Source of the DNA: Boothiomyces macroporosus
Lineage: Eukaryota > Chytridiomycota > Chytridiomycetes > Rhizophydiales > Terramycetaceae
Assembly (NCBI GenBank): GCA_027604185.1
Contig: JADGKB010000005.1
Coordinates: forward strand, 62,001-126,000
Length of the DNA stretch: 64,000 nucleotides
Direction: 5' to 3'
Shown here: positions 1 to 64,000 of the stretch, one piece after another
Layout: every line of letters starts with the position of its first letter
How positions within the stretch are numbered: position 1 is the stretch's first letter
Notes under the pieces: generated by a model
The model's input: only the letters and a program-made list of their open reading frames with translations
Told to the model about the DNA's origin: nothing
Database searches by the model: none
Made by a program: the position numbers and the translations under genes

Positions 1-233
1 TCAAAGAAAGCGTTCAAGGCACCGATTGCTTTTTCTAGTTGCAGCCTTCACAACTGATCCTTTGGTTGCAGCACCTGCGGGATTTCAATTGAGCCCATCT
101 GATGAATGATAGCGTTAGTTCTTGTAAATAGACGTATAACTTGTTGAATGATACCGGTGGAATGTAGTCTCACACAATCGTTGGTGAATGTTACTAACGC
201 AAAAGGCACTAAAGCAAAGGGAAAAAGAATTCA

Positions 234-563
234 GTTGACGGTACACAAGCTTCCATCAATGCAAACAAGGTTTGTCCAGTTGGTACAAATGAAAAAACCT
301 TGGCTCAAGATGGTTCTTTGGCAAATGCAACAGAGGAAAGCTTTTTTAATCCAGCTATTAAATCAGCAACTGATCCCAAAGTAAAAGCTGCCATTCAATG
401 TCAAAAGAATCGAAACAAGGTATTAAAGAACACTTGTTTCTTGAACTCTGCTAAAGCAAAAGGGGATCAACCAAACATTGATAAGCATTCCAACCAGCTG
501 CTCAAAAATAAGGCTGACGCTACATCCAGCTGCACTAATGTTGATGCCAATCTATTTATATAA
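234..563 (+). CDS. Unrecognised protein, 3' part; 5' exons unresolved
   Basis: The frame is open after a TAA at 210 and ends with TAA at 561-563. Its first ATG is at 300, but the translation already looks like protein from 234 (VDGTQASINANKVCPVGTNE). It contains four cysteines and many Asn/Lys/Ala residues, and I recognise no family. Another frame at 2-109 carries a hydrophobic stretch (LLFLVAAFTTDPLVAAP) that could be the signal peptide of the same secreted protein. At 184-205 there is a GT...TACTAAC...AG segment that could be an intron, but I could not join the frames convincingly. The gene may also begin outside the window. Confidence 0.35.
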   Translation, partial: VDGTQASINANKVCPVGTNEKTLAQDGSLANATEESFFNPAIKSATDPKVKAAIQCQKNRNKVLKNTCFLNSAKAKGDQPNIDKHSNQLLKNKADATSSCTNVDANLFI

Positions 564-957
564 TAAATATTCATTGTATATCTAAAACTTTTTGTTGTAG
601 TCTTGTCAATCCACGAAAATGTCTTTGGATTAATATGAAATGAGATCATCTCAAAGATATCGGCCAGTTTCCGGTATGACAGTATTTCTAGGCTACACTC
701 AATGATTCCACGCACTAATTACATGATAAACAAAGTAAAAACGGCTTTTTTAAATTATTTTTGTAAATAAATCCTGACCGGTTGAATTATCGTCTCCAAG
801 ATATTCGCCTTGAAGTTGCGTTATACTTTTAGCGGATATTGCCAGCGTAGCCATACGCCTTTTTCCAGTTGCTTAGTAAGCAATAATGAGTCTGTAATCA
901 CGTGACAAAAGATCATCATTATCATAAAACAGGGAATTTTCACTGAAAAAAATAAAT
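564..957. other. Intergenic, no gene seen
   Basis: There is no supported coding frame on either strand. The only feature I can point to is the E-box palindrome at 898-905, listed separately. Confidence 0.5.
898..905. promoter_or_regulatory. TCACGTGA palindrome upstream of SER3
   Basis: The 8-bp palindrome lies 53 bp before the SER3 ATG. CACGTG is the core site of bHLH factors such as Cbf1/USF. The same core recurs at 3299-3304 before the WOPR gene. That it is functional is inference. Confidence 0.35.
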
Positions 958-2256
958 ATGCCTCCAAATTTCCGCTCAAAGACTTTAAAACCATTCAACT
1001 CTGGTGATATCAAAGTATTATTACTGGAAGGTCTAAATGCAACTGGTGTCAACATCCTCCGCAACGCTGGCTATCAAGTAGAAACACACCCTAAAGCGCT
1101 CGACGTTGAAACCTTGAAGGAAAAAATCAAGGACGTTCATGCGATTGGTATCCGTTCAAAGACCCAGTTAACCAAAGAAATATTGCAACATGCCGAAAAG
1201 TTGCGTGTTATTGGTTGTTTCTGTATTGGTACAAACCAAGTCGATTTGCAATTCGCAGCTTCAAAAGGTATTTCGGTATTCAATTCTCCTTTCAGTAACA
1301 GCAGAAGTGTAGCTGAAATGGTTATTGCTCAAATTATTGCCTTGTCCAGACAGATGGGTGATCGTAATACCGAGTTACACAACGGCATCTGGAACAAAGT
1401 CTCCTCCAACTGTCATGAAATCAGGGGAAAGAGCTTGGGAATTGTGGGATATGGGCACATTGGATCTCAGTTATCTGTCCTTGCAGATTCATTTGGTATG
1501 AAAATCTTCTTTTTCGATATTCTACAAACTATGCCTCTAGGATCAGCAGTTCCTGTGCCATCTTTGGAAGAACTGCTCTCCAAATGTGATTTCATTTCTC
1601 TGCACGTTCCAGAAACCCCGGAAACTAAAAATATGATTGGAAAAAGAGAATTTGATTTGATGAAGAAGGGAGCTGTTTTCATCAATGCTTCAAGAGGGAC
1701 TGTTGTTGATATTCCATCACTAAAGCAAGCCCTAGTTAGTGGACACTTGGCTGGTGCTGCTGTTGATGTATTCCCAGTTGAGCCATTCAAAAATGGTCCA
1801 GGATTTGAATCAGATTTGATTGGATGTCCAAATACAATCTTGACCCCTCATATTGGTAGCTCATTTTAATGTAGGTGGTTCTACTGAAGAGGCACAATCA
1901 TCTATTGGTATCGAAGTTGGATCTGCCCTTGTAAAATACATCAACACCGGCTCTACTCTAGGCTCTGTCAATTTCCCAGAAGTAGATATTAGATCACCAA
2001 GTGCAGATTCATTGACTATTCGTGTAATCAATATCCATCAAAACGTTCCTGGTGTATTGAAGCAGATCAACAAGGTATTGAGTGATTACAACATTGAAAA
2101 ACAGATTTGTGATTCCAAAGATGCAGTTGCATACTTTATGGCTGACGTTACAGTAGAAAAGGAAGAAGACTTTGCTTCAATCCATAACGCTCTCAACAAC
2201 ATGCCAGGTAATTATAAACTAATGCAGAAAACATTCAAACTAGAGTCTTGTACTAG
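958..2256 (+). CDS. SER3: D-3-phosphoglycerate dehydrogenase
   Basis: This enzyme catalyses the first committed step of serine synthesis, NAD-dependent oxidation of 3-phosphoglycerate in the cytosol. The N-terminus (FNSGDIKVLLLEGLNATG) is the fungal type. The NAD-binding GYGHIG sits near residue 165. The catalytic Arg (NASRGTVVD), Glu (VFPVEP) and His (LTPHIGGSTEEA) follow near 245, 275 and 298, and a C-terminal ACT domain ends in NIQTRVLY. Introns are 1856-1874 (19 nt) and 2208-2227 (20 nt). Removing them restores TPHIGGST and the family C-terminus and gives 419 aa, close to bacterial SerA and somewhat shorter than yeast Ser3. An E-box lies just upstream. Confidence 0.95.
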
Positions 2257-2480
2257 TTTAATAAATCTATTATTTTTATTCCGTGTTTTAGATTGTGTTT
2301 TGGAAAGTTGCCCAAATTATCTCATCCAGGTATCTAATGTAACTCTAGGGAAAGAGGGTCTAAAGTCAACCAAATGGTTTAAAGACCTTTAATCAGCCCG
2401 ATAGCACCAATCAACAAAAGATTTACCAACAAATCCTCATTGTCAATTTTCCATTCAACATCCACGTCAAATTTCTTGCC

Positions 2481-3227: not shown

Positions 3228-3298
3228 TTACAACCATGTGTTTTGAATTTCCAACTAATTGGATAAAAATTTGTATTAAGGTTAGCAAAGTTTACTGT

Positions 3299-3852: not shown

Positions 3853-5572
3853 TTAAAACTTGAACTTCTTTTTCGGTTCTTCTTTTTTCTGTCTTTTGTA
3901 AGCCTGTTTTTCAGCGTGTTCATTGACCATGTCGCTTAGATCTTCCCTTTGCTGTTGCTGCGGTTTACTGCTTTCATATTTACGTTTAAGGGTTTCCTGG
4001 TCAATGTTTTCCAACTCTTCAGGGTTCAGCGATACGTCAACTTGCTTGTTTGCCAAACCAAGCTTATCTTTAATTTGATATGTGTGCGTGGAAGCCATAA
4101 ATCCAGATGTAGTTTTCTCTGATGTAGAAAGTACGGTATAAAGCGGTTTCTGTTCCTTCTTTTCTGTGATTGGAATTTCCTTTTTCATCTCTACAAAATC
4201 CGGTGTTTCTATACCACTAGGTACCGCAGAAGCTATACCAGACGGAGTTTCCAGACCTGAAACGCTTTCTATATTAAAAAGAGTTACCTTGTTCTTCCTC
4301 TTCTTCTTCCTCTTCCTCTTCTTCCTCGTCTTCTTCCTCTTCCACTTCGGTATCCAATTCTCCCCATAGTTTACTTTCGACTTCAGCCACAAACTCGCTA
4401 GATACTTGTGGTTTATGGGTACCAAACACATCACCGTACAATGGTCTATTGAACTCATCACATGGAGGTTTTCCCTACATTAATTATAAGATACCCAGCC
4501 ACCAGGATGGAACCCCCACTGAGCACCTTCTGGTATTGGTGCATTCAAACCAGGAATTTTCAATTGTGGATAAGAAGGAGGAGGTCCATATCTTTGCATA
4601 TTAATCAACCACGGTGGAGGAGCCAAATGTGGGATATTTAAAGCAATTTTCAACTCTTCAGACAAGACACCAGGCTTTCTCATTCTTAGTCTGGTTTCAA
4701 ACTCCTTTCCTTCAAAGTATATATCACCATGCTGAGAAAACAAGGGCTTGGTTTGGTATCTAAAGAATGCGTCATGTAACTTTTGATAATCAATGTCAAG
4801 TCTTCCCAGTTTTGGATTATGTCGTTCTCTAGCTTTGCCTTGCAAGGAGTGAGGCCCTTGTCCGCTTTGACGAAGTTGCATAATACCAGTTGCCTTGATA
4901 TACTCTGGCAATTCAAACGGAGGTTTTTCGATACCTCTTTTACCTATATTAAAAAAGAGTACCTTGTAAATATTTCCTTTTTTGAGACCAATGTGATGGA
5001 ACTGGAACAGTATTTCTGGTGGATTTTAGTTGAACAAGAAGAAGCGGATCAGAAGAAGTAACATCTACCCAATCAACAACTTCCGGTTTCTTTACTGCTT
5101 GTTTAAGCTGCGCTACAGTCATTCTGTTTAGTTTCTTTAGTTTCTTTTTCGTTTGTCTGATTTCCTCCTTGTCTACAAATTCATTATCTTCCTCCTCCTC
5201 TTGCTCTTGATCGTCATCCTCCTTTTCGTATCTTCTGGTCGATAAAGAATTGAATTTTTGAAAAACTTCAGAAAATTCTTCAAACGTACCCGCTACGTTC
5301 AGAGTCTCTGGAACAATTTCAATTTCAGCATTTACAGTCTCTTCCGGTTCGTTATTCTCTGTCTGTCCAACTTTCTTCTCTGGTTTATCGCCCTTCTTTT
5401 TCTTTGATCTCTTCTTTTTCGATTGTGGTAACAGCTCTGGATTTGTTTGCTTCAAGTACCGCACAATTCTATCCTTGACTGCAGATCGAGGTCCGACTGG
5501 ATCCAAGCCCAATTCTTTTGCGTAATCCTGTAATTCCTGGTCTTTTATTGTATTGAGATCTGGAAATGCCAT
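3853..5572 (-). CDS. CUS1: SF3b complex subunit 2 (SAP145/Cus1)
   Basis: This core U2 snRNP protein acts in branch-site recognition. Starting at the ATG at 5572, the 553-aa protein has an N-terminal SAP-like segment, a Lys-rich and then acidic middle, the DUF382 core (WSQKRKYLQGKRGIEKPPFE, DIDYQKLHDAFFRYQTKP) and the PSP segment (MQRYGPPPSYPQLKIPGLNA, HPGGWGKPPCDEFNRPLYGD). An acidic run follows, then SGLETPSGIASAVPSGIETP. Introns on the minus strand are 4944-4962 (19 nt), 4475-4494 (20 nt) and 4269-4287 (19 nt); each restores a family motif. The first and third introns are nearly identical in sequence. An upstream in-frame ATG near 5632 is not needed. Confidence 0.95.
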
Positions 5573-5814
5573 TTGTAAAAAATGTAAAAAAAAGTAAAAA
5601 TCTACTGCTAGCCCAGCAGCAGAGTAATCCATCAGTAGCTAGCCTGTAGGCCAGTAGAACTTCTTGACAGTACTGCGAATGTTTTTACATGAACCCGCCC
5701 GCACTGACAGATACTCTCACAATATTAAAGATAATTATCCGCCTTATACTCAAATATATTATCCGTGTGTCGAGTGTGTTGATTACTCATCCAAAGGTCG
5801 CGCTTTTTTTACCA

Positions 5815-6425
5815 ATGGGAAAAGCAAGTTCAAAGCTATCACCAGAAACGGTTCAAGACCTATCCAAAAAAACCCGCTTCACTGAAAAAGGTACTCTAAT
5901 ACTTACAAGAACTTCAGCAATGGTACCGCGGCTTCATGAGAGACTGTCCAAAAGGATACATTTCAAAACAAGAATTTTCAGCGATTTACAAAAACTATTT
6001 TCCGTTTGGTGATTCTACAAAGTACGCTTCAATGATATTTCAACTGATTGATATCGACCAGAATAATGAAATTGATTTTGAAGAGTTTATACAAGCGCTG
6101 AATGTTAGTGCGAAAGGAACGGTGGAAGAACGGCTGGAAGTATCTTTTAAATTGTTTGATTTGGATGAAGATGATAGGATATCCCCCGCGGAAATGCTAG
6201 CTGTCGTAGATTCGATTTATAGGATGGTTGGGTAACTAATGCTAATGTAGACCTACTCAAGTGCTAAGTGAAGATGAAGATACTCCAAACAAGCGAGTAG
6301 AAAAAGTATTCAGATTGATGGATAAGGATCATGACGGATTCCTGAGCAAACAGGAATTCCTAGATGGCGCCAGGAATGACCCGATGATTATGAATTCCCT
6401 TAATTTGTATGCGGGAATGGTCTAG
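5815..6425 (+). CDS. NCS1: Neuronal calcium sensor 1 / frequenin
   Basis: This N-myristoylated EF-hand protein activates phosphatidylinositol 4-kinase in yeast (Frq1-Pik1). The start MGKASSKLSPETVQDLSKKT carries the myristoylation Gly2. The cryptic first EF-hand keeps CPKG, and the others are DIDQNNEIDFEEF, DLDEDDRISPAEM and DKDHDGFLSKQEF. Introns 5891-5909 and 6232-6250, both 19 nt, restore FTEKELQQWYRGF and YRMVGPTQVL. The spliced product is 190 aa, exactly the usual family length, ending LYAGMV. Confidence 0.95.
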
Positions 6426-6529: not shown

Positions 6530-7737
6530 TTAAAACTTTTTACTCAATAGGTATTGATCAAGGTCATGCCAAAACGAATGTATAACTTTTACATCCAAGT
6601 ATCGCCTAGTCCGATTGATCTTGTTAGTAAAGAATTACATCTAGTATCTTGACATTCCATTGCGAAAGACTTCCGCTTGGTGGTTCATCTTGGAATTTAA
6701 GGGAGAACCCTAGTACTCTGGAGAATATATCAACTGGCTTGTCCCATTTCCACCCTTTGAATTGCCATTCTTGCCCACAAGTGAATACGGCTACCACTCG
6801 GTTCCAGTCTTTATCTTTCATTGTATCAATAGAGTCGAGAACAAGGAATTTAGAGATGGCATGCTTCTTTGGGTCCCTAGTAATGGTCAGTTGCATTGGC
6901 TTCTTTTCTCCTTTTTGTCTAATTTCTTCAGAAGAAATAAATCTGTATTAATTTAGGTTACTTTTGGTCAATGAGGAATTGCTGTGCATTGTATAATGTC
7001 AAAAGAGATTGGGAAGCTGCTGGAACAATAATAATTGGGACGATTTCTACGTTATTTGGATATTACTCTTCTTTTCTACTGGTTTCTGTGGTTTTACGTC
7101 TTTCTTGTCTTTGCCAGACATGAATGAATGGAATGCAGGCTTTTCAACGTTGGCAAAGTTCTTGTTGCCTTTGATACACAAGATGCTGCTGTTTGTATTC
7201 TGTATTAATGATATTTACAATTGTCCTCTGGTAGGTTTTGATTTTCTTTACTACTTGGTGGTCCTGATATTAGCGACGCTTACTTGCAGCATTTCTTCTG
7301 TTACTAATTCGCGTTTCTTGTTCAAATCAAATCCAAATATCTGTACTTCCTGGTTTGTTTTTTCTCGTTAGTGAATTGATACCATCTTGAACTATCGCTT
7401 TCTTGACATGCACACTTTCGTTTGTCTGGCCAGTTAGGAAATCCAGTAAATCCCTCCTATCCAAAAACGATACACTCTCCTTGCTTTTGCCCGCACACAG
7501 CTGCAAATAGGTTGGATGATCCAGCTGTCTGTTCAAATAGAAAAATAAAACCGTCCATGAATCGTATTGGTTATATCCTGACGGATCAGAAAGTTTTTGT
7601 TGCGGTGTATTTTCAAACGAAATCAGCGTCGCAAGTAGAACGTCATCTGTTTTCTGATTCTGATCTATCCAGAGTTGAAATGGCTTTGAATTTACAACTG
7701 AATTTCTCAGGTCTCTCACAAACTGAAATTTGGACAT
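6530..7737 (-). CDS. CDC73: Paf1 complex subunit Cdc73 (parafibromin)
   Basis: Cdc73 belongs to the Paf1 elongation complex that travels with RNA polymerase II. The N-terminal Cdc73_N part includes SVSFLDRRDLLDFLTGQ. The C-terminal Ras-like domain includes IVPIIIVPAASQSLLTLYNA, WNRVVAVFTCGQEWQFKGW and RRYLDVKVIHSFWHDLDQYL. Six introns on the minus strand (7364-7382, 7264-7283, 7200-7218, 7047-7066, 6943-6961, 6620-6638; 19-20 nt) are needed to connect the frames. The product is 363 aa. The short exons between 6962 and 7383 make this gene a good test of the intron model. Confidence 0.92.
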
Positions 7738-8043: not shown

Positions 8044-10059
8044 ATGAGTGATAAGGAGCAGGATAGAAAGCAGGCAATGTACCAGCAAAATTCAAGGACG
8101 TCATCCTCTCTTTCTACCTTCTATCAGCAACCCACCATGTCGCAATCGTCTCCAGCAATCAGTACACTTTCTAAAAAAACCTCGAAATTTTTTGGAATGT
8201 TTCAAAATGAGGATAAGGAAAAGAGCTTATTTAAATCGTTAAAGAAGCGCTCCTTCTTCTTTGGGAAACGGAAAGAAAGCAGTGAGCCTGTAAGTGTGAT
8301 TTAATCCTAGGATATCCGGGCATTGGATTTCCAGCAGTCTTCAAAAGTAGCAGAAATTAGAAACTGGGACTCTTTAACGTTGGATGAAATTGCCAAAGAC
8401 GTGCGCTCTAGTATTGATGAAAGGACCTACCCAAGGGATATTTATGCCAACAGAACTGGCAGCTTAGATATATCAAGAATGTCTACCCAAACATTCGATT
8501 CAAAAGAGTCTACTATTGAAAACTTGAAAAAAGAAGCATCAGATCCTGCATTGCAGATTCCAGTTAGGAGCACACTAGACCCGAAATACAGCACACTTAG
8601 CGAAGGAGTGAAAGAAGAGACTGCCGAAACAGCAACAAGTCCATTCTCTTTAAAGAGCCCAACAACCTCTGCACCAAGTTTATCTAGAAGGGCTGCTGCC
8701 AAAAAGAAGAACGTTCGCCCAGAAAGCTTTACAAGCGGGCAGAAAGCAGAGCATTTCTTGCCGCCAAAGATTGAAATTAGTGGATTTGACATTGATTTAT
8801 TAAAGGACTTGCAGTTACATACTGTCCATGATAAAACTGGGCCAAGCAATACACAGCCAGATGAACCAAAGATTCAAAAATCTCCGGTTTTGAAAAGAAT
8901 GCATACCACTCCTGCAAGAGCAAGTGTTTCGTTTTCATCTGAATTTGATGTTGATATATCCAAAGATCTAAAAAGACACCCTTCTTTGGAAAGAAAATCG
9001 GACGGCCTTGCTGTGTCTCCATCTAGAAATTCATTACCGAGATTCCTCACGTTAGATTCATTTGAAAATCCTGTTGATCCACACGAAGACCTGTTTGACA
9101 TGAAAAAGTGGCTACTGACTACTGACCAGAAGGACGAAGAGGAAGTTATTCCTGTTCCAAGTTTAACAAGAAGAAAGTCTGCAAGTAGACCAACGAAATT
9201 TAGCGACTCTCATGTTAATATTACCCCAACTTCTGAAAATCTTCCTGATATCGCAGAAAAAGAAGACATTCCAAACATTGAGTTTGAATTTCCAGATATA
9301 CAACAAAAGAAATTAGCGGTTCCTACTGAATTAAAGACTATCAAAACTGTTGGAAAAGTAGATGCAGCAGAAATTTCTGGACCTGTAGAAGAAACTATAC
9401 CAGTAATGAGTGAAAGCTATGACGGTGCATCCCAGAATATTGATTTGACTTTGCGCGAATTTAACAAGGAACGATTTTCCCTACCTACTTCACAAGAACC
9501 TCCTGTCCAATGGGCCCAAATCCCACAGAAACAGCCAAAAAGTCCATGGTCTTGGATTACAAAATTCATCCCAAAACTAAAGCCCAAAATCATTGAATCT
9601 GAATCTGAATGGAATCCATACCCAGATTGGTCACATCTTCCAAACAATAGATTGGACCCAGAAAAAGAAAAGTTTGTCTATTCTCTTTCCCACATCAAGC
9701 TTGCTCAAATTGGAAGGCCTTTATTACAGCAAGTCCAAATCTCCAACTTAATGTTATATATCCTGTCAGTTCATTCTGATGTAACTATACGTGGTAGAGG
9801 ACCAAGACGTAGCCGTCGCAAACAAAAAAGAAGAAAGCCGATCCAGCCATTAATTGATTTTGGAGAAAAGAAAAAGAAACCTGTAAAAAATGCAGATAGT
9901 GATTCTAGCGAAAGCTCGAGCGATGAAGAAGACGATGATGATGAACCAAGAAAGCCTGTTAAACACGTAGTTCCTGGGCGTCATATTGAATCAGAGGAGG
10001 ACGATAGTGATGAGGAAGATGATGTACCATTGGGAATGTTGCAAGTGAAAAAAGAATAA
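8044..10059 (+). CDS. Large disordered protein, possible Zds1-type C-terminal motif
   Basis: The 664-aa protein is mostly low-complexity and Ser/Pro/Lys/Glu-rich. Repeated short motifs of the type ISGFDIDLLKDLQLH and SEFDVDISKDLKRHPSLERK suggest linear docking sites. A compact hydrophobic motif near residue 545 (VYSLSHIKLAQIGRPLLQQV) followed by SNLMLYILSV resembles what I remember of the Zds1 C-terminal domain, but I am not certain. The tail is first strongly basic (RRSRRKQKRRK) and then acidic (SSSDEEDDDD). One 21-nt intron at 8290-8310 joins MSDKEQ...SSEP to DIRALDFQ. Confidence 0.75.
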
Positions 10060-10161: not shown

Positions 10162-11141
10162 ATGAAAGACAAAGAGGTTCAATTACACAAAGTAGCGACT
10201 GCTGGTGGTTTAGGGGGAACCCTAGCCGACGCCCTTCTCCATGGGTGACTATTTATTAACTTGCAGCATGGACACTCTGAAAACAAGGATGCAGGGACAG
10301 CTCACATCCAAATCAACCAAATATACAGGAATATACCCTTCGCTAACGCTATTATTTAAAGAGGAAGGAATAAGAGGATTTTTTGGCGGGTTTACTGCGT
10401 CACTGATTGGCTCTTGCTTCTCGACAACGGTGTATTTTGGATTGTACGAAACATTCAAAAGGGATTTTATCAAGAAAGGATTGAACCAAGAAGTATCGTT
10501 CTTTGTAGCTGGAGGATTAGCGGATACGGTTGCATCAGTATTTTACGTGCCGTCAGAAGTGCTAAAGACCAGATTGCAGTTGCAGGGGCGGTACAACAAC
10601 CCACACAGCTTATCGGCTCATAACTACAGGAATACATATGATGCTTTTATGAGTGTAAGCTGTTATTAACAAGATATACACCAAAAGAGGTTTGCCAGGG
10701 CTGTACTATGGATGGGGAGCCACATTACTACGAGATGTCCCATATTCAGCAATCCAATTCACTATTTATGAAACAATCAAAAAGTTTTTCAAGCGGTACA
10801 GAGAAGATGGCAGGCTAACTCCGCTCCATGATATGTTTGCTGGAGCTTGTTCTGGTGCAATATCAGGAGCCGTTACAACCCCTCTAGACGTTGTAAAGAC
10901 ATATTTGCAGACACAAAGAAGAATACCGAAAACCACGGCGTTCTTGAACATGAATGATTTGACACTGGTAAAGAGTGGGCACATGTATACTGGAATATTT
11001 AGTGCGTTCAAAGGAATTTACAAACAGAATGGTATGAATGGGCTGTTTAGTGGTGTTCTGGTGCGTAGTGTCTGGACTGGTTCTCAATCAATGGCCATGT
11101 TTTTCTTGTACGAATATTTCATTTCATTAATGGAAGAATAA
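10162..11141 (+). CDS. MME1: Mitochondrial carrier (SLC25), Mme1-like
   Basis: This inner-membrane carrier has three SLC25 repeats of about 100 residues. The signature sequences are DALLHGMDTLKTRMQG, VPSEVLKTRLQLQGRYNNP and TTPLDVVKTYLQTQ. The combination of the last two with GYGATLLRD-like YYGWGATLLRDVPYSAIQFT matches yeast Mme1 (YMR166C), reported as a Mg2+ exporter; substrate is inferred from this resemblance. Introns are 10245-10266 (22 nt) and 10655-10673 (19 nt). The first lies just inside repeat 1, so the true start is the ATG at 10162, upstream of the longest frame. The product is 312 aa. Confidence 0.85.
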
Positions 11142-30611: not shown

Positions 30612-32589
<1,978 letters not shown>

Positions 32590-52836: not shown

Positions 52837-54069
52837 TTATTCGTCCCAGTAATACAAGACGTCTTTTTTGTCTTCAAGTGTAAAACTATTGTAATTGGTA
52901 TAGCCTTCGATAATACTGGATTCGTCAGATACAAAGCTATCCCTGTAGTGTTGCTGATCGGTGTAGTCATTGGATTGTGGTCTATTATCCACCGCTTGAG
53001 GAGGGGCTTAATTAGATAAAACTACCTCTATTCTGGCGATTGCCTGCAAATATATTAGAGTAGTGATTATTAGGTAGTTGAGGGTATTGGGTTGATCTTG
53101 GTGGAAAATTTATGAATGGGTCATGTTTCTTTGTTGGTGATCGCCTAGTAAGCGTAGCTTGGCTGTCTTTGCTCTTGTTGCTCATCGTTGGAATTTCAAT
53201 CTTTATTGGGTCTTCTTTGTGCGTGCTGGATTGGGCTTTGGATTTAGATTGGGATTCAATCATCTTTTGAGTAGTCCTAAAAGTAACAAACAGATAAGAG
53301 TGTAGCTCCAAGCCATACAAGAACGATGGAATGTAAAGGCCAACGGTATTAATGTAGTTGCGACCACTACTAGCCATCGACACCGCGCTTATTGTTAGCA
53401 CAACATTTGTAATCATGATCAAGATTATTCTACTACAGCCGCCATCAAAAGACACATAAGTCCATACCTTGTACCACTTCTTTTCAGGGCTAATGGAAAG
53501 TACATACAAGAACGAGAATGAACCTGCAATGAACAATCCAGCCTCAATGACACACGCAGCTGCATAAGTGGGATAGATAAGATCGTTATTTGGAGATGCA
53601 CTGTATGACAAGTACTTGTTGATGGCAATCTGATATCCAATGAATGCACCAACACCAGAAGCAAACCCCTTTATGAAAAGTGTCAAGACGCCAAGAATGA
53701 CTGTAGCTAAAGTAATGACTGCAGATTTCTAAGTAAAGATAAAAATACCCCATAAAACACTCGTACTCGATGAAGCAGCAATCCAATAATAAATACTGAA
53801 ATGATATAAGCGAAAGTATAGTTCAACGCGCTGACTAACCCATACCAATAATTAGGAACCGGATAAGGGCTTATCTGATAGTCCAATATATATAACTGTA
53901 AAAAAACGAATCCAGTCAAAAGAACAGCTGTGATAAACGAAATTATCCAAGTTACGGTTGCATACTTTTTCCTCGTGAATAGAATGTAAAATGATGATAT
54001 CAATTCGTGAATTGCCATTCCGCCAAGCACAGTCGCTGGGGTCAAGAATGCGTTATCTTGCCGGGCCAT
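52837..54069 (-). CDS. Polytopic membrane protein, about seven helices, unrecognised
   Basis: Two introns (53729-53748, 20 nt; 53007-53025, 19 nt) give 397 aa. Residues 1-265 contain about seven hydrophobic helices (TVTWIISFITAVLLTGFVFL, NYTFAYIISVFIIGLLLH, GVGAFIGYQIAINKYLS, ACVIEAGLFIAGSFSFLYVL, IILIMITNVVLTISAVSM). A long polar cytosolic tail rich in Lys, Ser, Asn and Tyr follows and ends YNSFTLEDKKDVLYYWDE. The topology is receptor-like, but no signature is recognised. Confidence 0.75.
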
Positions 54070-54209: not shown

Positions 54210-55766
54210 TTAGTCAAGGTCAGCGGGATTCTCTTCTTCCTCTTGTAACTGAATGAAACCAGCTTTGGCAGCCATCTTTGCTTGCAAATCTGCTTCTTCA
54301 GCAGGGAGGCTGCTCAGATAGGCATTAATCTTGTCAACGTCCTCGTTGAGCAAACCAACTAGGATAAAATGAAAAAGCTACCTTTATAGTCGTGAGGAAG
54401 GTTATCAAACCATTCTGCTTGCTTCTTTTCCATTTCCGTTGGATTCTCTCCTAATGGCACTCGTAAGCTTCCATCAGGTTGAGTAAACGACTCGATCAAT
54501 TTCTTTCTGGATTCTTCTTGTTCTTTAAGTTTCTTTTGTAACTCCAACTTTTCCTTTCGAAGTACAGCACCTCTGGTGGTGATGTGTTGATAAGTCTTAT
54601 CCAAGTCGGAGAAGAATAGGTTTTGGGCACTCGTACCAGTTCCTGATAATCTACGTGAGTTAAAATTACTTTGCAAAGAACATATCAACACCTGATGGCC
54701 CAAGACTTCTAGTATACTTGATGATCATTGAAACAGTAACAGCTGTTTTAGCTTCCTTGGTTCTTCCTATAATTTGAAGAGCAAGTCCTCTGAGCAACAA
54801 AGTTTCTTCATTCTTTTCAGTTTGAATCACTGGATATTGTTTGACTATTCTAGCAATATCACCATAATCAGTTTTCTTTGAAATTTCCAACAATTGTGGA
54901 TGAATTGCTTTAATTTGCTCATCGGTAGCTTCAAATTCTTCAAGAGTAGCCTGTTGAATCTGCAAGTTAAACAAGTCATACTTCTTTGCTCATCTGATTG
55001 TCTGCTTGTGCTTTTGGGCTGTGGATGGTTTCAATTACTTTTTCTTTTCCAGAAGACTTGTGTGTATCAGCAGCTGGAGCAGCTGTGGACTCGTCATTCT
55101 TTTCCTTTGCAACAAAAGTCTTGTCAAATCCAGTAACCAGATTATCACTGGTGAGCTTTTTGCTCATTTCAGCTTCAAATTCCTTGATTTGTTTCTTCAC
55201 AACCACTTGACGTTCTTTAAACATTTCAATATGTTTTTGGAAGCAATCAAATAGGAATTTAACAATATGCTGACCATCCTGATCTTTTGCAATGAATTCT
55301 ACTAGTTCTTTGCCGATGTTGTTTATTTCTTCGTGCCATGGTTTATGGCTTCGCAATACATCTCCCCAAACTGGAGGTTCCCAGTTACCTGGCCAATCTT
55401 TCATTCGGCCAAGCGATTCATTACGAATAGGATCAGTGAATTTCTTTTCTACTCTTTCCGACAAGTTTTTCAAATATTCGAAAATCTGGGTTGGAGTAAG
55501 AGCTGCTAAAGGTTTGATTTCATCGGGAATAAACTTCAAGTATTCTTCCGTTAGATCGTATTCCATTTGGAGCAAATCTCTTTGATCTTTTCTTTCTCTG
55601 CGTTGCTTGTGTACTTGAGCCTGCTTCCATCTAACCATTGATTTCTTGTCAACGTTTGGACTAGGTTAGTAATCGCATACTGGCACTCAAAATCTTCATC
55701 GTCGCTTAGCTCGATAGCGTCCCATTTGCTGTAATCTGTCGTTAGCATGACTTTACCGATTGGCAT
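54210..55766 (-). CDS. CDC37: Hsp90 co-chaperone Cdc37
   Basis: Cdc37 loads protein kinases onto Hsp90. The hallmark N-terminus MPIDYSKWDAIELSDDEDFE is recovered only after removing the 21-nt intron 55736-55756 that follows a 10-nt first exon. Then come HPNVDKKSMVRWKQAQVHKQ, the central Hsp90-binding domain (VFGGDVLR-like WEPPVWGDVLRSHKPWHEEI) and the C-terminal helix. Other introns are 55661-55680, 54960-54981, 54651-54669 and 54359-54381 (19-23 nt). The product is 483 aa. The 21-nt first intron contains no in-frame stop, so unspliced mRNA would read through. Confidence 0.93.
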
Positions 55767-55845: not shown

Positions 55846-58204
55846 TCAATATGGCGGAGCTTCTTCGTACTTGAATAGAGCATCGTACATCTTTGCCCCC
55901 AGTTCTGCCGCGACTTGCGGATTCTTGAATACTGCAACTTTGACAGTATCGACTGATAATTTCGCATAATAGTTGGTGCTAGATTAAGAATAGAAATTAC
56001 TGTATAGCGCGGCCCATTCCTTCTATTATTACCAGATCTACATCGGTACAGGCAGAAACGACTTCTTCGCTAACTCGGTCCAAATCAATACATGGTGAGG
56101 CATTACCAGTGGATACAAAAGTGAGCAATTCGGATTTGTATGCCTTTTCAATAATCAAATCGATCTTTGATATTTGCTCCAAGATATCGCCTAATTCTCC
56201 AACGGTAATATCGTTTACAGATGGCTGCTCATTTGCAGCGATTACAACTTCGGTTCCACGAGAAACCAGATATCGAACAAATGGCAATATACCAAAGATT
56301 AAATCCGCACCACTGTTATCTACAAAAATCATGCATTTTTTGTATGGAGGTTCAGTTAAAAGCCTTTCTCTAAACTTGCTAATGTTGTAGAACTTTGGAT
56401 CATATCCGATTTTAGACTATAATTAGCAATCACTTACTTGAGCAACTTTGAAATCTAGCTCGCCCTTCTTGATCATTTCTTGAATATCAGCAGCACCCCA
56501 GTCGTACATGTTCCCAGCCAAGATATTGCTGATAAGCTCATCAACTAATGCTTCTCCTGAAAGCTTGTCCAGACTGGATGTCAACAAGGAGAATCCAAAT
56601 AAGGCTTGACTGTTTTCCTTTTGTTTGATTTTGGAAAAAATGTCATTGAATCCCATTTCCCTCAAGCACTGTTCTCTTAAATTCAGCAGACTAAATTAAT
56701 ATCTATTACCTTCGGACAGAAAGAGTTCCATACGCGTTTGGATTAGTCTTTAGTTCAGAGAGGTGATGTCGGTACATTTTTTCAAACATTTCAGCTCTAG
56801 CCAAAGCATCTTCATTCTTTTCAGTGGCAATATCAACCAAGGATTTCAAATTTGCATCCAATAAATCAATCCAGTAGGAATGCAAGTGTCTTTCAGTCAA
56901 TACAGTAGTATCTGGGTTGTAGGATTTAGGATCTAAAAGTAAAGGAAATTGTTTCAGCTCGGTAGGGTATTCTTCTAAACTTCCCACGGCAGTGATGATG
57001 TTCTTTTCAATGCTGCTAAAGTTTTCAGTGAAAGAGTTCAATCTTGCATAGGTTGGAGGATCTCTCAAGAATGCACCAACAGCTCCCAAATAACCTTCAT
57101 GTCTGAGGAATTGTGCCTTGATTTTACCTTTGGACCAAAATGCAATGGCATAACTAAGGGTGTTCATGGTAATCGGATGGCCACTGATAAAGAAGCCGCT
57201 GAAATAGATTCTAACGTCAAATTCAAATACCTTTGAATCCCGTGAGCTTGTGCATTCAAATAAGCGATTTGGCCAATGTTGTTACTTACCAAATACAGAA
57301 GAGAAGCGGAAATATCTTCTTGCGCGAATTTGGACTTTCTCTCTGCTGGTGGTACTTTAATCACTTTTCCGAATGAAGAAGCAATGGTAGTGCTCTTTAA
57401 TCCGATTTTGGAATAATCGCCACCGTAAATATCACCAACCAACATATCCACATTCTTGTTATCACCCAACTTTGACATTGCTCAGTTAAAAATAGAGATA
57501 CCAAGCATTTCATCATAGTCTTTAGCATCAGTCAGCAGCCCCAACAATCCCCATAAAGTACCTCCACCAAGAGAGGTACCACTGATACGTTCATAAGTTT
57601 CATCACTTGTTACTTTGATTATCGAAACACCTGATCCGATATTTACCAACATGTAGGGAAACAGTTCCTGAGAATTATTTTCATACTGCATCGGCTCTGG
57701 CCGTCTTTCATCATAGGTAAATACTTCATAGGCAATTTGACGAACTAGAAAGTTAAGCCCGTAAATTAAGCATTCCATTTCGTCCTCTTTTTGAACTGCG
57801 ACTCCCAGCTTTTCCCTAAATAAATCTGAATTAAATGAAACAAACCATAGTATTTATGGGAGCCTCCGCCGGTAGCTTATCTTAATTCCAAAGTACCTTT
57901 GATTCTTACAGGAGTATCCCCTCGTTCCGTCAATAATCCTTGCAGAAACCCAATGCATTGATCGATTTTGGCCGTTTCAAACTTGGAAAAGCTCAATCTT
58001 CCGCCTTGAGATTGCTTTGAGAACCAAACGACTTTGGCAAGACTGCCTCCCTTTGATTAACTTGCAATTTACGATATCAACGGCAATGTGGGCAATATTA
58101 TCGCTCTGATTTGGGAGCACAATATCACTCTTCTTGTTTTCCGATATGAAGGATTCGTTTGTATTAAGCGATCCTGCAGATGGGTTGCGATACATTTTCG
58201 ACAT
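55846..58204 (-). CDS. PANK4: PANK4-type pantothenate-kinase-like/DUF89 phosphatase fusion
   Basis: The N-terminal pantothenate kinase fold (AVDIGGSLAKVVWFSKQSQG, ATGGGSHKYYDLFREKLGV, ERISGTSLGGGTLWGLLGLL, MLVGDIYGGDYSKIGL, GFFISGHPITMNTLSYAIAF) is fused to a DUF89 phosphatase (FVDNSGADLIFGILPFVRYL, SRGTEVVIAANEQPSVNDIT, IIEGMGRAIHTNYYAKL). Mammalian PANK4 is a 4'-phosphopantetheine phosphatase acting in CoA control. The kinase catalytic Glu of active PANKs (KFE) is missing here (KYYD). Eight introns: 58051-58072, 57876-57896, 57826-57845, 57481-57501, 57211-57230, 56691-56709, 56417-56437, 55979-56000 (19-22 nt). The product is 730 aa. Confidence 0.9.
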
Positions 58205-60061
58205 TTTTGAAACTGGTGTTGAAAATTGTGGTTGAAAAAACTGTGGAATCTCTTTTGGAAAACATGAGGGACAACTTTGAACTCGCCGTGTTGGAGAGCA
58301 GGAACCATTGGAATTTATTTGTAAATGAAACGCTTCAGTCGATAAATATTTTCGAACAGCTGGAAACGGAAACACGGGATTTCAGCGAAATATCAGACAT
58401 CATACTGCCCTCAGTGGATGAATCTCTGGAATATTCATTCAAAGTAAAAGACCTGGATAGCGAAACGGAAATTCCAGAGTATACTGAGGAGCGAGATCAG
58501 GAATCGACAGTAGATCAGGAACAATTTGATGAGGATGGATCTGAGCTGTTCTCAAAACAGAAGCTGGTGTCTACTCTATTCCCAAAGCTTGCAGAGAAAC
58601 AACCGGAAAAAGAGTCTGATCAAAGCGAGCACTTGCTGGACAAAATTAATGTATTTTGAGTTAACTTAGCAACTGGAACTAGATCTATCAAAGACCAAGC
58701 AGCTTCTGTTAAAATCCAGGAGAGAATTGGAGGCAGTCGCTCAAAGGGAGAGCAAGCTCAAAGTAGACAAAGCAATCAGTCATTAATCATAGGATAATGA
58801 AATATTCTACTTGAATGAAGAGATAAAGAAACTCAAAATGTCTGTAGACTTAGAAATGAAGAAGTTTAAAAAGGAAAAGATACTATGGGAAAAACAGCGA
58901 AAGGCAATGGAAATATTACCAACCAAACGGTTACTCTTACTTAATTACAGAGAGCGGCAAGAAATTGAAATGCTGAGGATCCAATTGCAGGAAGAAAAAG
59001 ACAAATTCAAACAAAACGAGAGCAGGTTGCAAGCTGCTCAAGAAAGGATGAGGAAAAAGAATGAAGATCTAGAGAAACGGAACAGGGAGTTATTAGAGGA
59101 AGTGAAAACACTTGAGCAGGAACGGTCAAACTTCTTGGAGCTAAAGAAATCGATAGCAAAGGAAGAGTTAGAAGAAAAGAAACCAATTGAAGTGCGAACG
59201 AGAACTTCTTTACCGCTCGCAAAGCCTAAAAAGACTTCACTACTATCAAAGGCAACTAGGCTGTCGCTTGGGTCAGCAGAAACTAAAACGATAAAGAAAA
59301 CCGCTTCAATGCCAGCACTGAATATTAAAGTTCCCAAAAAGAATATAATACAACCGCTGTCAGAGGGAGAATTGAAATTGAACGAGATGGAAAGAAATTT
59401 GGGCATGCAACGCCATATTCATGTATTTAAAAGATTAATATTAGCAATCTGAGTCCAAAGATGGTACAATTGAACGATTCTATCCAGACAAATCTCGCTG
59501 TGTATGGAATACAGATTCTATCGAGATAATCAAGCCAGATGGAACAACAACGACGTTCTTCTCCAACGGCGACAAGAAAACTGTAACTGTAACTAACATA
59601 GATAGAAGCAAACAAAACAGAAACCTATTGGTACAAGGAATCAAAGATAAAACAAACTACAATGCCGGATGGAGAAACTTTGTTTGAATTTGAAAATGGG
59701 CAGCGAGAAAGGAAACTAGCAGATGGAACCTACATCATAGAGTTTACAGATAACACGATAAAAACGGTTTATCCAGACAAGTCTGAAAAAATAATATATG
59801 GAGATGGAAAATATCAAGAAACTGATCCTGATGGCCGCAAGGTAATCAGGTTCCCAGAAGGAATGATAGAGATTCATCAAAACGGGAGAAAAGAGCGAAT
59901 ATATCCCAGCGGTGCGAGAAGAATTACATACCCAACTGGAATCCAAGAAACTATATATCCCAACGGCGATATCTGTATCAAAGACAAACTCGTAATCCTT
60001 ATTAATCTAGGGAAATGTAATCAAGCAAACCCACACGAGCCTAATTGACAAGCAATATTAA
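58180..60061 (+). CDS. CENPJ: Centriole protein CPAP/SAS-4 (CENPJ), TCP10 domain
   Basis: CPAP controls centriole and basal-body length by binding tubulin. A long coiled coil (RERQEIEMLRIQLQEEKDKF and following) precedes the C-terminal TCP10/G-box beta-sheet repeats of about 16-20 residues: DGTIERFYPDKS, KPDGTTTTFFSNGDKK, MPDGETLFEFENGQRE, DPDGRKVIRFPEGMIE, RIYPSGARRITYPTGI. The tail CIKDKLGNVIKQT matches the CPAP end. Introns are 58651-58669, 58763-58792 (30 nt), 58929-58949, 59423-59444, 59583-59601 and 59992-60010. The product is 583 aa. The next in-frame ATG is at 58264; from 58180 the gene overlaps the PANK4 start. Confidence 0.9.
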
Positions 60062-60131: not shown

Positions 60132-61044
60132 TCATGAAGTAGGCGCAGTTTGGTTAATTGATATATCAAACACTGTTTTCAAAGGGTCGACAGTGCTAGG
60201 TCTGTCTCCAACGACATCGGTAGTATCAGTGGTATCGGTAGCATTACTTCTACCGCTACCCATACGGTTAACTGCACTCAAGTTTCCCAATTTCACATCT
60301 TGGTTAGATTCGGTATTCAAAGATGCTTGAGAGCCTAAAGGCATCACGCTATCACCCAAACCCTTCTCTCCTCCCCAAGATAGTCGTAATTCTTCATTAG
60401 ATCCAGCACCCAATGCCTTCTTTCTTTCCAACACTTTACGAGCGTGTTCTTCTTGACGTGCCAATTTGAGCTGCAACTTGCTGATTTCACGATCACGATT
60501 AATCTTTGCAGCTTGTTCTTTTTCCAAAAGACGTAGTTTCAAAGCAGCCAAGTCTTCAGGGTCCTTTTCTTTACGCGACTTGAGTTTTGGTTTGTCACCT
60601 CTACGACGCTTTTTCGTTTCTTGCTGATCAGCTAAATCCTAAAAAGTTAGTCCATTCTATTGAATAAAAATCTTTATGACGCACCCCATAAAGAAGATTA
60701 TCAAGATCGTTACCAACCTTCCATCGAGCTTCTGTGTTTGCTAGTTTTGCTTTGATATCGTTCTCGGATATCGTGAGCTTGGGTAATGAGAGTTTTGCTG
60801 ATTGCGACAGTGTTTTTGCTGGTTTTATAGATTCAGTTAATTCGTCCAAAGGAATTTCGAAGGCAACCGATTGGCCAACGGTATTAATAGGAATTGATGG
60901 GATCACACGTTTTGATAGTACGTCTGATCCTAGGGTTACTAAAGACTTACCTTGAGACGAATCTGTAACAGATTCAGCAAGTTTTGGTTTTGGAATAGTT
61001 GTAGCGACAATCTGATTTCCTTCCTTTGAAACTCCACAGCCCAT
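60132..61044 (-). CDS. Stathmin-domain protein with N-myristoylation signal (STMND1-like)
   Basis: The N-terminus MGCGVSKEGN is a classic myristoylation/palmitoylation signal. Residues near 60-115 (VAFEIPLDELTESIKPAKTL, KLTISENDIKAKLANTEARW) and the long charged helix after the intron (LAALKLRLLEKEQAAKINRD, ISKLQLKLARQEEHARKVLE) resemble stathmin and its membrane-bound relative STMND1, which sequester tubulin. The intron is best placed at 60639-60684 (46 nt, phase 0), the longest in the window; a 79-nt alternative with an earlier donor also keeps frame. The product is about 288 aa. Confidence 0.55.
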
Positions 61045-61647: not shown

Positions 61648-62249
61648 TTATTGGATATTTTCCTTTTGATAAAAGTCAACAATAACTTTGAGTTTTTCAT
61701 CAAGTCCGGCAACCCAACTTTTCAACTGTTCGTTTAGCTTCTGATCTTCTCCGTGAGATAAATTAGCATAAAAGTCTTTACGGTATGGGCAAGCTTTCAT
61801 TGCGACAGAAAAGATCGGACGAATCAAGAACGAATGATGCTTTGACAATTTTTGTTCGTAGGCTTTGGTAAACGAAGTTTGTAATTCCTCCGATCCATTC
61901 TCCAAGTTTAATTTCAATGCCAAACAAGTGAATTCCAATCCTCTTTTCAACCACAGCAGTGCTTCAGTTGCGATTCTCTTCTTTTCAGGCTTTTCTGAAA
62001 TAACTATGGATTGAAGGGTTTTGGATTTATCTGGGAATTGATCATATCTTGTCTTGAGTTTGGTTACGTTTCCCTGAATATCAGACCTCACTGGGGAGAA
62101 GGCTGATCCTAAAGAATCTTTGATTAACAAAAAGTACCGAGGAGCTTCACTAGAACTTCAACGCTATTGAGGAACGGAATGGTTTCTACTTCACCGTTGA
62201 TTAGATTGGCATCTTTGAACGAGGCAGGATTCTGGTCGAAAAAAGTCAT
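61648..62249 (-). CDS. GLTP: Glycolipid transfer protein (GLTP domain)
   Basis: This cytosolic lipid-binding protein moves glycosphingolipids or ceramide-phosphate between membranes. It shows the GLTP blocks GSAFSPVRSDIQGNVTKLKT (the ligand-binding Asp and Asn), TEALLWLKRGLEFTCLALKL (conserved Trp and Lys) and KHHSFLIRPIFSVAMKACPY (His ligand). A 20-nt intron at 62118-62137 joins VEVLVKLL to DSLGSAFSP. The product is 193 aa. Confidence 0.93.
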
Positions 62250-62558
62250 TTTGATTTGCAAACTTGGACAAAGAATTTGCGCGTTCTGCAAGGGTGACTA
62301 CAAATAATTCCAACTGATGATAAATCCTCCCTGATTGTTTAATTTTACAGGTTTATTTCAAGTTTGCAATTCCGTAAGAATCGGGACAGCTCATTAATAA
62401 CCCAGAGACTATCCAGGAAAAGTTGGTTCTTATTTCCTTGTAAAGTCTATAATGATGAATCTTGGATGGTTCAATAGTTCCCCAACTGTCAAACTTGGTT
62501 GTGACTGCTACGCCACCCTTTCTGTTTTGAAAAGTGAGAAATACTTTTTCACATTTAA
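62250..62558. other. Divergent promoter region, no gene seen
   Basis: About 310 bp lie between the divergent starts of the GLTP gene and the zinc-binding gene. Nothing recognisable was found. Confidence 0.5.
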
Positions 62559-63431
62559 ATGGGCAAGTCGGTGGATATCAAAGATCCGAAATCCCAAACC
62601 AAAGTCTGTCATTTATGTAGAACCAACCAAACCCAATTAACCAGGCACTTGGCAAAGAAATGCTTGCTCATCCCTGAAACCTGGAAATTTGATCCTGTAG
62701 ATTCAACTGATTGCCAGTTTTGTAAATCAATATTCAACTTCGCTGATGCAAATGCATACGTCTCACATTTGGATATTTGTAATAGATACAATGTGTCTGT
62801 AGAACGAATGAAAAACTCCGAGACCAGAATGACCTCAAAGTATGCTCGGTCGCCTGCTACTGGTGCCAGAAACAAATTCAAATCATCCTCAGCTGCAATA
62901 TGCCCTGTTGTTGGCCTTGTTGAAGTTATTCATATGGGTGGAAAGAAATATTTCAAATGGAATGATAAATACTTTGAGCCTGGAATGTTCTCTTCCGGAA
63001 ATATGGGGGCTTTTTCAGCAGTAAATGTTAGTCAGGATGTACTAGAAGCTGGAGCTACACCATACGATACTCCGATGGCTCAATTTAATGATTTCTTGTC
63101 TCCTTACAGCCCTTATGCCAACCTCAGTCAAATACCAAATTCGAACCTCTCAACCGGCATGGAGTTTATTAACCAACTGAGAGCAACTTCGCTTAAAGAT
63201 CCACAAATAGTTCCCATCACCGACCCGCTTTTTATAAATGCAGATACCAACGGTCCAACCTATCCAGATGTACGTCAAATGCCATATTCTGCAAGCAATA
63301 CCAACCAATCTACAAATTATATCAATTCATTGTTCCCAATAGATGAACGCGACACTCTTAGCATGGACTATCTGTTCCAAGTGGATGAAAAGGATAAAAA
63401 TGACATGTTTTCAAATGTGGTCGAAAAATAG
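62559..63431 (+). CDS. Protein with two N-terminal CxxC...H...C zinc-finger-like units
   Basis: The 290-aa protein begins with two candidate zinc sites: CHLCRTNQTQLTRHLAKKC and CQFCKSIF...HLDIC. The first two Cys, a His and a last Cys in each unit suggest C2HC fingers. A predicted basic stretch follows (TSKYARSPATGARNKFK), and the last 150 residues are Pro/Asn/Ser-rich and acidic, like an activation domain. A DNA- or RNA-binding regulator is plausible, but the family is unknown. No intron is needed. Confidence 0.7.
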   Translation: MGKSVDIKDPKSQTKVCHLCRTNQTQLTRHLAKKCLLIPETWKFDPVDSTDCQFCKSIFNFADANAYVSHLDICNRYNVSVERMKNSETRMTSKYARSPATGARNKFKSSSAAICPVVGLVEVIHMGGKKYFKWNDKYFEPGMFSSGNMGAFSAVNVSQDVLEAGATPYDTPMAQFNDFLSPYSPYANLSQIPNSNLSTGMEFINQLRATSLKDPQIVPITDPLFINADTNGPTYPDVRQMPYSASNTNQSTNYINSLFPIDERDTLSMDYLFQVDEKDKNDMFSNVVEK

Positions 63432-63470
63432 CCTCCTTGTTAATAAACTGTTTCAAAAACCAAGATTTCT

Positions 63471-64000
63471 TTATTCCAAAAGAGGAAGCAATTCAGTAAC
63501 AGTCTTGATGTCCATTGCTCGAATCTTTTCGGTCCACACCAATTTCTCATCATCATACTCTTGAGGCTCAATACCAACTACTTTGACATGTTCCAACCCA
63601 GATAGTGGGTAATTTGGATCCAATTTCAAAACAAATGCTCTGCCAGATTCAGCTTGAACAAGTAATTCTAATAACTCATCATCGAATATTCCTATTGTTG
63701 GTATTGATTACCTCCATTTTCTACTATTACTTGCATTTCTGATTTTCTACTCAAATAATTTTTAACACGATTGTTCAACAGCGTAACTGCTGTTCCTATA
63801 GCTTCATTAAGTGGCATATCAGCAATAATTTCTAATACATCTTGATACTCAATATGATCCGCCTTTGTTAATCTAAAGTACTTGAATATCTAGTTTTTTG
63901 TCAATAATAAAAGTAATAGTAACGTCTTGAATGATTACTTGAAACTTTGTATCCGAAAGAGTATTGATTTTAGTCTGAGTAAATCTGTACAATAAATTCA
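63471..64000 (-). CDS. Unrecognised protein, 5' end beyond the window
   Basis: Three exon frames join through introns 63863-63881 (19 nt) and 63692-63711 (20 nt) and remain open to the window edge. The visible sequence includes NTLSDTKFQVIIQDVTITFI, YQDVLEIIADMPLNEAIGTA and HVKVVGIEPQEYDDEKLVWT, ending VTELLPLLE. It has alternating strands and helices, but I recognise no family. Confidence 0.65.

Follow-up and report, generated by a model that had tools for sequence, protein, structure and literature searches.

Candidate U2-type spliceosomal introns of 19–22 nucleotides and an ordinary-looking splicing machinery in the genome of the chytrid Boothiomyces macroporosus

The stretch of DNA analysed here (the window) covers 64,000 nucleotides (nt), positions 62,001–126,000, of contig JADGKB010000005.1 (contig 5; assembly GCA_027604185.1) of Boothiomyces macroporosus, a fungus placed in Rhizophydiales, Chytridiomycota. 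Its genes, among them those for ADE2, V-ATPase subunit A, the splicing protein SF3B2 and a pantothenate kinase, are interrupted by short GT..AG segments that we read as candidate introns (Table 1). With all models taken, 91 introns were called in 48 gene models on both strands, 76 of them measuring 19–21 nt and 86 measuring 19–23 nt. This bore out the original prediction, made from the letters of the window, of about 94 segments with 80 at 19–21 nt. A terminal motif [CT]T[AG]A[CT]N1-4AG was present in 69 of the 86 short introns. Five window introns exceeded 23 nt (30, 79, 105, 238 and 316 nt), and those of 105, 238 and 316 nt are probably model errors.

A set of gene-finding runs was conducted on a 264-kb sample of the 15.2-Mb genome (216 contigs), composed of the window and twenty 10-kb stretches. 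The first gene finder required only GT and AG at the intron ends, gave equal weight to all lengths between 10 and 150 nt, contained no motif and counted only the coding score of the flanking sequence. Under these conditions 62 of 158 segments fell at 19–21 nt. When the same coding model was rerun beside decoy terminal pairs, GT-AG yielded 60 of 161 segments at these lengths, in contrast to CT-AC (4), GA-TG (6), TG-GA (4), GT-AC (0), AT-AC (7), GC-AG (1), GG-AG (1) and GT-TG (1). Starts with GTA and TTAAT/CTAAT-like sites upstream of the AG emerged in the motif-free segments, though neither had been supplied to the model. A later gene finder added terms for donor, branch and length that had been trained on the segments of the first run; the learned length term biases its counts to short lengths, and the unbiased first run is the test. 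The later run gave 120 models above score 15 with 301 introns, 289 of them at 18–25 nt (18 nt, 3; 19 nt, 77; 20 nt, 113; 21 nt, 68; 22 nt, 23; 23 nt, 4; 25 nt, 1) and 12 longer. Nearly all sampled introns were ultra-short (below about 30 nt), and the length histogram, which had been proposed as a check on uniformity, peaked at 19–21 nt in the sample as in the window.

Short introns were present in 20 of the 21 genome stretches, window included; outside the window, 52, 90 and 53 introns measured 19, 20 and 21 nt. Their density was 1.69 per kb of coding sequence; by extrapolation, the whole genome would have about 16,700. Genome-wide, the pattern GTAAN{3,33}CTAATNNAG, with a free gap, gave 1350 matches versus 508 for the reversed pattern, and 82 of 100 places among the matches listed corresponded to 19–21 nt, some of the 100 lying in duplicated segments. 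Identical matches or loci recurred at a fixed offset near 269.6 and 312.2 kb of C2, near 197.3 and 218.9 kb of C3, and in C49 and C100 (L045/L046), reflecting either recent segmental duplications or duplicated assembly. Strong-motif segments of 19, 20 and 21 nt remained within model coding sequence in only 5, 2 and 1 cases, compared to 57, 61 and 28 called introns. Outside the scored models of the sample, strong-motif segments also peaked at 19 and 20 nt (17 and 18, versus about 2 at neighbouring lengths); these are presumably either missed genes or introns of untranslated regions. In the window, segments of the form GT..YTAAYN0-6AG on both strands numbered 38, 26, 20 and 18 at 19, 20, 21 and 22 nt, against 13.8, 14.6, 14.6 and 14.6 expected from five order-1 Markov resamples, and the peak at other lengths up to 80 nt was 22 at 77 nt (15.6 expected). 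An origin of the 19–21-nt peak in chance or composition was considered and is ruled out by these resamples and the decoy pairs.

The signals within the introns were held at nearly fixed distances. A branch site, YTAAY, was scored in 252 of the 289 short introns; in 216 of these the branch A occupied position 14 or 15, in 223 it lay 5–6 nt from the intron end, and in 240 the 3' splice site was the first AG past it. Donor–branch and branch–end spacing each fluctuated by about one base. At the donor, +3 was A in 92% of the short introns and +6 was T in 59% and G in hardly any, while G at +5 occurred in only 16%, which is background. A conserved 5' splice site, GT-AG ends and a branch site near the 3' end are features of U2-type introns; GT-AG was imposed by the model, with no peak for the decoy pairs, and YTAAY was seen in the motif-free introns. 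No compensation of the absent +5 G by G at −1 was detected in these introns (p = 0.75). An in-frame stop was present in 53 of the 68 introns of 21 nt, with 47.0 expected over three frames, which gives no clear signal of selection for premature stops. Introns of Paramecium avoid lengths that are multiples of three; this was not seen in the chytrid sample, where 68 introns of 21 nt stand between 113 of 20 nt and 23 of 22 nt.

Removal of the segments restored conserved proteins. The spliced ADE2 model has 561 amino acids (aa), the length of P0001 from Boothiomyces sp. JEL0838, with 99% identity over 100%; 7, 58, 0 and 2 of 60 homologs had indels within 8 residues of junctions 1–4. Residues 5–613 of the V-ATPase A model aligned end to end with mammalian V-ATPase A, and the model agreed to 99% with P0121 of Boothiomyces sp. 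JEL0866, including all five junctions; 3, 0, 0, 0 and 0 of 60 homologs had indels within 8 residues of junctions 1–5. In these two genes, nine short introns fit deposited Boothiomyces proteins. For SF3B2 only residues 133–567 aligned with the human protein (E 1e-131), and the pantothenate kinase model aligned with yeast CAB1 (34–269, 264–346) and At2g17340 (430–727); the targets of both models have solved structures.

Seven of the 11 ADE2 relatives examined (P0005, P0006, P0016, P0022, P0066, P0075 and P0093) are evidently unspliced open reading frames, which stop or lose frame at the site of intron 3 or intron 4. Three of their tails can be read as a GT..AG intron that continues into the known exon in another frame: P0022 with 20 nt (9 of 9 residues; shuffles as good in 3 of 2000), P0016 with 22 nt (13 of 14; 0 of 2000) and P0093 with 19 nt (11 of 11; 0 of 2000). 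The tails of the other four span 2–5 residues and are uninformative on length. In the ADE2 tree, these relatives together with Boothiomyces, Kappamyces and Gorgonomyces grouped in a single set of 11 (support 100/98), whose internal order the tree does not settle; Batrachochytrium and Entophlyctis adjoin the set from outside. Introns of 19, 20 and 22 nt can be read at corresponding sites in these three uncultured relatives, so that the tiny-intron trait is predicted to extend beyond the genus Boothiomyces.

The genome encodes U1, U2 and U6 small nuclear RNAs (snRNAs) with recognition sequences that match U2-type introns. The 5' end of U1 reads AUACUUACCUG, the canonical recognition sequence; the branch-binding region of U2, GUGUAGUAUC / GUGUAGUAUCUG, is canonical and present in two copies, and U6 carries the canonical ACAGAGA. 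The two U2 snRNA genes (L031, L032) differ in their 3' halves and have the branch-binding region in common. In genome profile searches the matches of Slu7, Prp18 and SF1 exceeded their cut-offs. Cwc25, found at two identical loci, starts with MGGGDLNLKKSWHP and has an intact GGG plug, and SF3B2 is encoded within the window. RED_N had no match in the genome, but none in the control genomes either, which makes this negative uninformative. Judged by their predicted sequences, U1, U2, U6, SF1, U2AF65, SF3B2, Slu7, Prp18 and Cwc25 look ordinary. The inventory of U1, U2AF, SF1, SF3b and snRNAs proposed with the original prediction thus returned canonical U1, U2 and U6 beside U2AF65, SF1 and SF3B2, and the strain on the machinery that it had anticipated is not visible in these parts.

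The segments are very probably U2-type spliceosomal introns that have shrunk to 19–22 nt genome-wide and would be excised by a canonical, essentially complete spliceosome. The original reading as spliceosomal introns in a fungus is supported by motif, geometry, frame restoration, same-genus proteins and canonical snRNAs. In the mechanism we propose, U1 and then U6 would bind GTA(A) with little contribution from donor +5, and U2 would pair with YTAAY about four nt downstream of the donor pairing. Branching would leave a lariat loop of 14–15 nt, the first AG beyond the branch A would be chosen as 3' splice site, and exon ligation would proceed through Slu7 and Prp18 as usual. We suggest that U1 and U2/SF3b act in turn, not side by side, because their footprints nearly touch on such introns. 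Loss of the +5 G weakens pairing with U1 and U6 and may ease the hand-over.

Several points weigh against this interpretation. Removal of the segments from RNA is deduced from sequence alone, the deposited Boothiomyces proteins are themselves predictions, and ADE2 intron 2 is backed only by the same-genus protein, with 58 of 60 homologs carrying indels in this loop. Duplicated segments are among the places counted with the genome-wide pattern. U1 scored 68.8 bits, just below the Rfam threshold of 69.5. U2AF65 reached 230.7 bits, below its cut-off of 310.3, a shortfall due to the exon-by-exon search, and 2 of 14 control genomes matched too; the spliced U2AF65 model reads as what we take, by recognition of its domains, to be a full protein. 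The successive action of U1 and U2 is argued from spacing alone, and some highly expressed genes (beta-tubulin, alpha-tubulin, the RPL22-like gene) have longer introns.

That the segments stay in the RNA as assembly errors, pseudogene frameshifts or sites of translational bypass is very improbable. Fifteen of the 68 introns of 21 nt lack an in-frame stop, which would permit read-through, but random errors would not all have GT-AG ends, a single length and a branch motif at constant distance, and the decoy pairs gave no peak; moreover, the segments are absent from deposited proteins of two Boothiomyces strains, and GT..AG segments of 19–22 nt occupy the same sites in the three uncultured relatives. 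Removal from RNA by non-spliceosomal means, such as an endonuclease–ligase pair, would accommodate introns below the length that most spliceosomes are thought to need. We consider it still more improbable, given that the GT-AG ends, the YTAAY site and the first-AG rule all carry the mark of a spliceosome and that matching canonical snRNAs are present.

The near-uniform length originally claimed held for the 289 introns of 18–25 nt in the sample, but not for two genes with a long intron at or near the start codon. In beta-tubulin, an intron of 118 nt (L002, bases 1378–1495; GTAAGT..TACTAAC) divides the start codon A|TG; its other introns measure 23, 24, 22 and 23 nt, and alpha-tubulin has one of 23 nt. 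In an RPL22-like gene (L037, reverse strand), an intron of about 156 nt, read by eye, follows the third codon with GTATGT and the branch site GATTAAC. Highly expressed genes may therefore hold a second, rarer class of long introns, though tests in the sample came out weak or negative. A further proposal, which we regard as less likely than not, is that two classes are handled partly differently: tiny introns with weak donors, and a few long ones that have GTAAGT/GTATGT donors and (T)ACTAAC-like branch sites and lie at the 5' end of highly expressed genes. Besides the two long introns themselves, it is favoured by the slightly greater length of introns with +5 G (mean 20.6 versus 20.1 nt, p = 0.005). 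However, just two such genes were seen, and codon bias was weakly tied to intron length (rho 0.12, p = 0.047, n = 270) and showed no link to +5 G (p = 0.39); the bias weights were derived from the two tubulin genes, so that the ranks of the tubulins themselves are circular. A search for GTA[AT]GT..TACTAAC gave 8 matches versus 34 in reversed sequence, a badly matched control in that TACTAAC is rarer than its reverse (18 versus 74). The other six matches had no sensible junction translation, and only beta-tubulin was convincing.

Ciliates and a relic algal nucleus are the main known carriers of ultra-short introns, in some cases with splicing parts that are reduced or altered, and the introns of chlorarachniophyte nucleomorphs range from 18 to 21 nt. 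The ciliate Stentor coeruleus has introns of 15–16 nt, Slu7 and Prp18 are listed there as not found, its Cwc25 is without the GGG motif and the N-terminus of its Isy1 is not conserved, for which avoidance of a steric clash was proposed (PMC9505925). On this description Stentor and the chytrid share one dominant length, GT-AG ends, AU-rich introns, a branch A confined to one or two positions with a 5-nt tail past it, a commonest intron without +5 G, and canonical U6 ACAGAGA and U2 branch-binding sites. They differ in that the branch A lies at position 10/11 with a weak consensus in Stentor but at 14/15 with a strong YTAAY in the chytrid, which retains detectable Slu7 and Prp18 and an intact Cwc25 plug. 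The machinery differs from that of Stentor, the one tiny-intron case compared in detail. Either the steric clash becomes relevant only when the loop falls below about 14 nt, or the changes in Stentor have another cause.

As for other systems, chlorarachniophyte nucleomorph introns of 18 nt (PMC12316389) are nearly as long as those of the chytrid, but belong to a relic endosymbiont nucleus, whereas those described here lie in a main fungal nucleus and have a conserved branch site. Paramecium and Nyctotherus also have ultra-short introns genome-wide, but these organisms are ciliates and their introns, at about 25 nt, are longer (PMC5014332). The type-B introns of Trichomonas (23–25 nt) are uniform and short like those of the chytrid, with 24 introns in that genome against the extrapolated 16,700 here (PMC12316389). 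Cryptococcus, also a fungus with U2-type introns in intron-rich genes, has a mean of 63 bp, three times the length in the chytrid (PMC8476143). Searches of the Creative Commons-licensed PMC literature, which mostly excludes subscription papers and preprints where the pattern may be in print, gave among the matches listed no report of Boothiomyces introns or of 19–21-nt fungal introns. As far as these searches show, the size class is known but new for fungi.

A broader proposition, which we regard as evenly balanced, is that a full canonical spliceosome (Slu7, Prp18, U2AF65, SF1, Cwc25 plug) routinely splices introns with about 4 nt between the U1/U6-paired 5' end and the U2-paired branch site, and that this state is common to a Rhizophydiales clade of Boothiomyces, Kappamyces kin and uncultured lineages. 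If so, tiny introns would need neither the loss of step-two factors nor a retreat of branching factors, contrary to the model derived from Stentor, and U1 and U2 would have to act successively on each intron. The extrapolated abundance of tiny introns in a free-living fungal nucleus, beside a splicing kit that is ordinary wherever checked, separates the question whether a modified spliceosome is required from that of the minimum distance between 5' splice site and branch site, and offers a natural test of the lower limit of intron size. Chytrids are culturable and the parts are yeast-like, so the spacing could be varied base by base. Software for gene finding or read mapping that sets its minimum intron near 20–50 nt will misinterpret genomes of this kind; the unspliced metagenome ADE2 proteins are an example.

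Table 1 Genes and introns of the window. Introns are gene-model calls; weak models are marked where so graded.
Feature	Position	Strand	Basis or remark
ADE2 gene, 4 short introns	43439..45205	+	561-aa model compared with P0001 of Boothiomyces JEL0838
21-nt intron	43486..43506	+	ADE2 intron 1
19-nt intron	43722..43740	+	ADE2 intron 2; in loop variable among homologs
21-nt intron	44874..44894	+	ADE2 intron 3; 20-nt intron here in uncultured relative P0022
20-nt intron	44991..45010	+	ADE2 intron 4; 19-/22-nt introns here in uncultured relatives P0093/P0016
V-ATPase subunit A gene, 5 short introns	30648..32589	+	homology to mammalian V-ATPase A and JEL0866 P0121
20-nt intron	30733..30752	+	V-ATPase A; junction matches P0121
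19-nt intron	30948..30966	+	V-ATPase A; junction matches P0121
21-nt intron	31725..31745	+	V-ATPase A; junction matches P0121
21-nt intron	31934..31954	+	V-ATPase A; junction matches P0121
19-nt intron	32481..32499	+	V-ATPase A; junction matches P0121
SF3B2/CUS1 gene (U2 small nuclear ribonucleoprotein protein), 3 short introns	3853..5632	-	gene model and alignment with human SF3B2
19-nt intron	4269..4287	-	SF3B2
20-nt intron	4475..4494	-	SF3B2
19-nt intron	4944..4962	-	SF3B2
Pantothenate kinase + DUF89-like gene, 8 short introns	55846..58204	-	yeast CAB1 and At2g17340 alignments
22-nt intron	55979..56000	-	pantothenate kinase
21-nt intron	56417..56437	-	pantothenate kinase
19-nt intron	56691..56709	-	pantothenate kinase
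20-nt intron	57211..57230	-	pantothenate kinase
21-nt intron	57481..57501	-	pantothenate kinase
20-nt intron	57826..57845	-	pantothenate kinase
21-nt intron	57876..57896	-	pantothenate kinase
22-nt intron	58051..58072	-	pantothenate kinase
19-nt intron	1856..1874	+	model 958-2256
20-nt intron	2208..2227	+	model 958-2256
19-nt intron	5891..5909	+	
19-nt intron	6232..6250	+	
19-nt intron	6620..6638	-	
19-nt intron	6943..6961	-	
20-nt intron	7047..7066	-	
19-nt intron	7200..7218	-	
20-nt intron	7264..7283	-	
19-nt intron	7364..7382	-	
21-nt intron	8290..8310	+	
22-nt intron	10245..10266	+	weak model
19-nt intron	10655..10673	+	weak model
22-nt intron	12237..12258	-	
20-nt intron	12650..12669	+	
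21-nt intron	12770..12790	+	
20-nt intron	12836..12855	+	
19-nt intron	14706..14724	+	
20-nt intron	14815..14834	+	
20-nt intron	15150..15169	+	
19-nt intron	15311..15329	+	
20-nt intron	18203..18222	+	model 18126-24221
21-nt intron	18578..18598	+	model 18126-24221
20-nt intron	18750..18769	+	model 18126-24221
21-nt intron	20268..20288	+	model 18126-24221
21-nt intron	22018..22038	+	model 18126-24221
21-nt intron	22705..22725	+	model 18126-24221
20-nt intron	23080..23099	+	model 18126-24221
20-nt intron	25020..25039	-	weak model
20-nt intron	29516..29535	-	weak model
23-nt intron	29729..29751	-	weak model
19-nt intron	29900..29918	+	
19-nt intron	30203..30221	+	
21-nt intron	33593..33613	-	
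20-nt intron	34184..34203	-	
21-nt intron	35159..35179	-	weak model
19-nt intron	40515..40533	+	weak model
20-nt intron	41040..41059	+	weak model
19-nt intron	41220..41238	+	weak model
19-nt intron	41803..41821	+	
20-nt intron	42884..42903	+	
20-nt intron	45561..45580	-	weak model
19-nt intron	47107..47125	+	
20-nt intron	48451..48470	-	weak model
20-nt intron	48741..48760	-	weak model
20-nt intron	50032..50051	-	
20-nt intron	50173..50192	-	
19-nt intron	51516..51534	-	weak model
21-nt intron	51622..51642	-	weak model
22-nt intron	51997..52018	-	weak model
23-nt intron	52019..52041	-	weak model, doubtful; abuts 51997..52018 intron
19-nt intron	53007..53025	-	
20-nt intron	53729..53748	-	
23-nt intron	54359..54381	-	
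19-nt intron	54651..54669	-	
22-nt intron	54960..54981	-	
20-nt intron	55661..55680	-	
21-nt intron	55736..55756	-	
19-nt intron	58651..58669	+	
30-nt intron	58763..58792	+	
22-nt intron	59423..59444	+	
19-nt intron	59583..59601	+	
19-nt intron	59992..60010	+	
79-nt intron	60639..60717	-	GGACTAAC branch site; plausible
21-nt intron	60930..60950	-	
20-nt intron	62118..62137	-	
20-nt intron	63692..63711	-	
19-nt intron	63863..63881	-	

Among the remaining features of the window, a kinase-like model at 46311–48352 (+), presumably of the ABC1 family, requires the introns of 105 and 316 nt; probably the model is erroneous or the gene damaged. The protein encoded at 58180–60061 (+) has a C-terminal repeat that we take to resemble the centriolar TCP10_C/CPAP type, as expected of a zoosporic fungus. 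Three near-identical tRNA-Trp(CCA) genes lie within 3.3 kb, at 25964–26036 (+), 26707–26779 (+) and 29152–29224 (−), and the sequence they share comprises the tRNA plus a few bases only.

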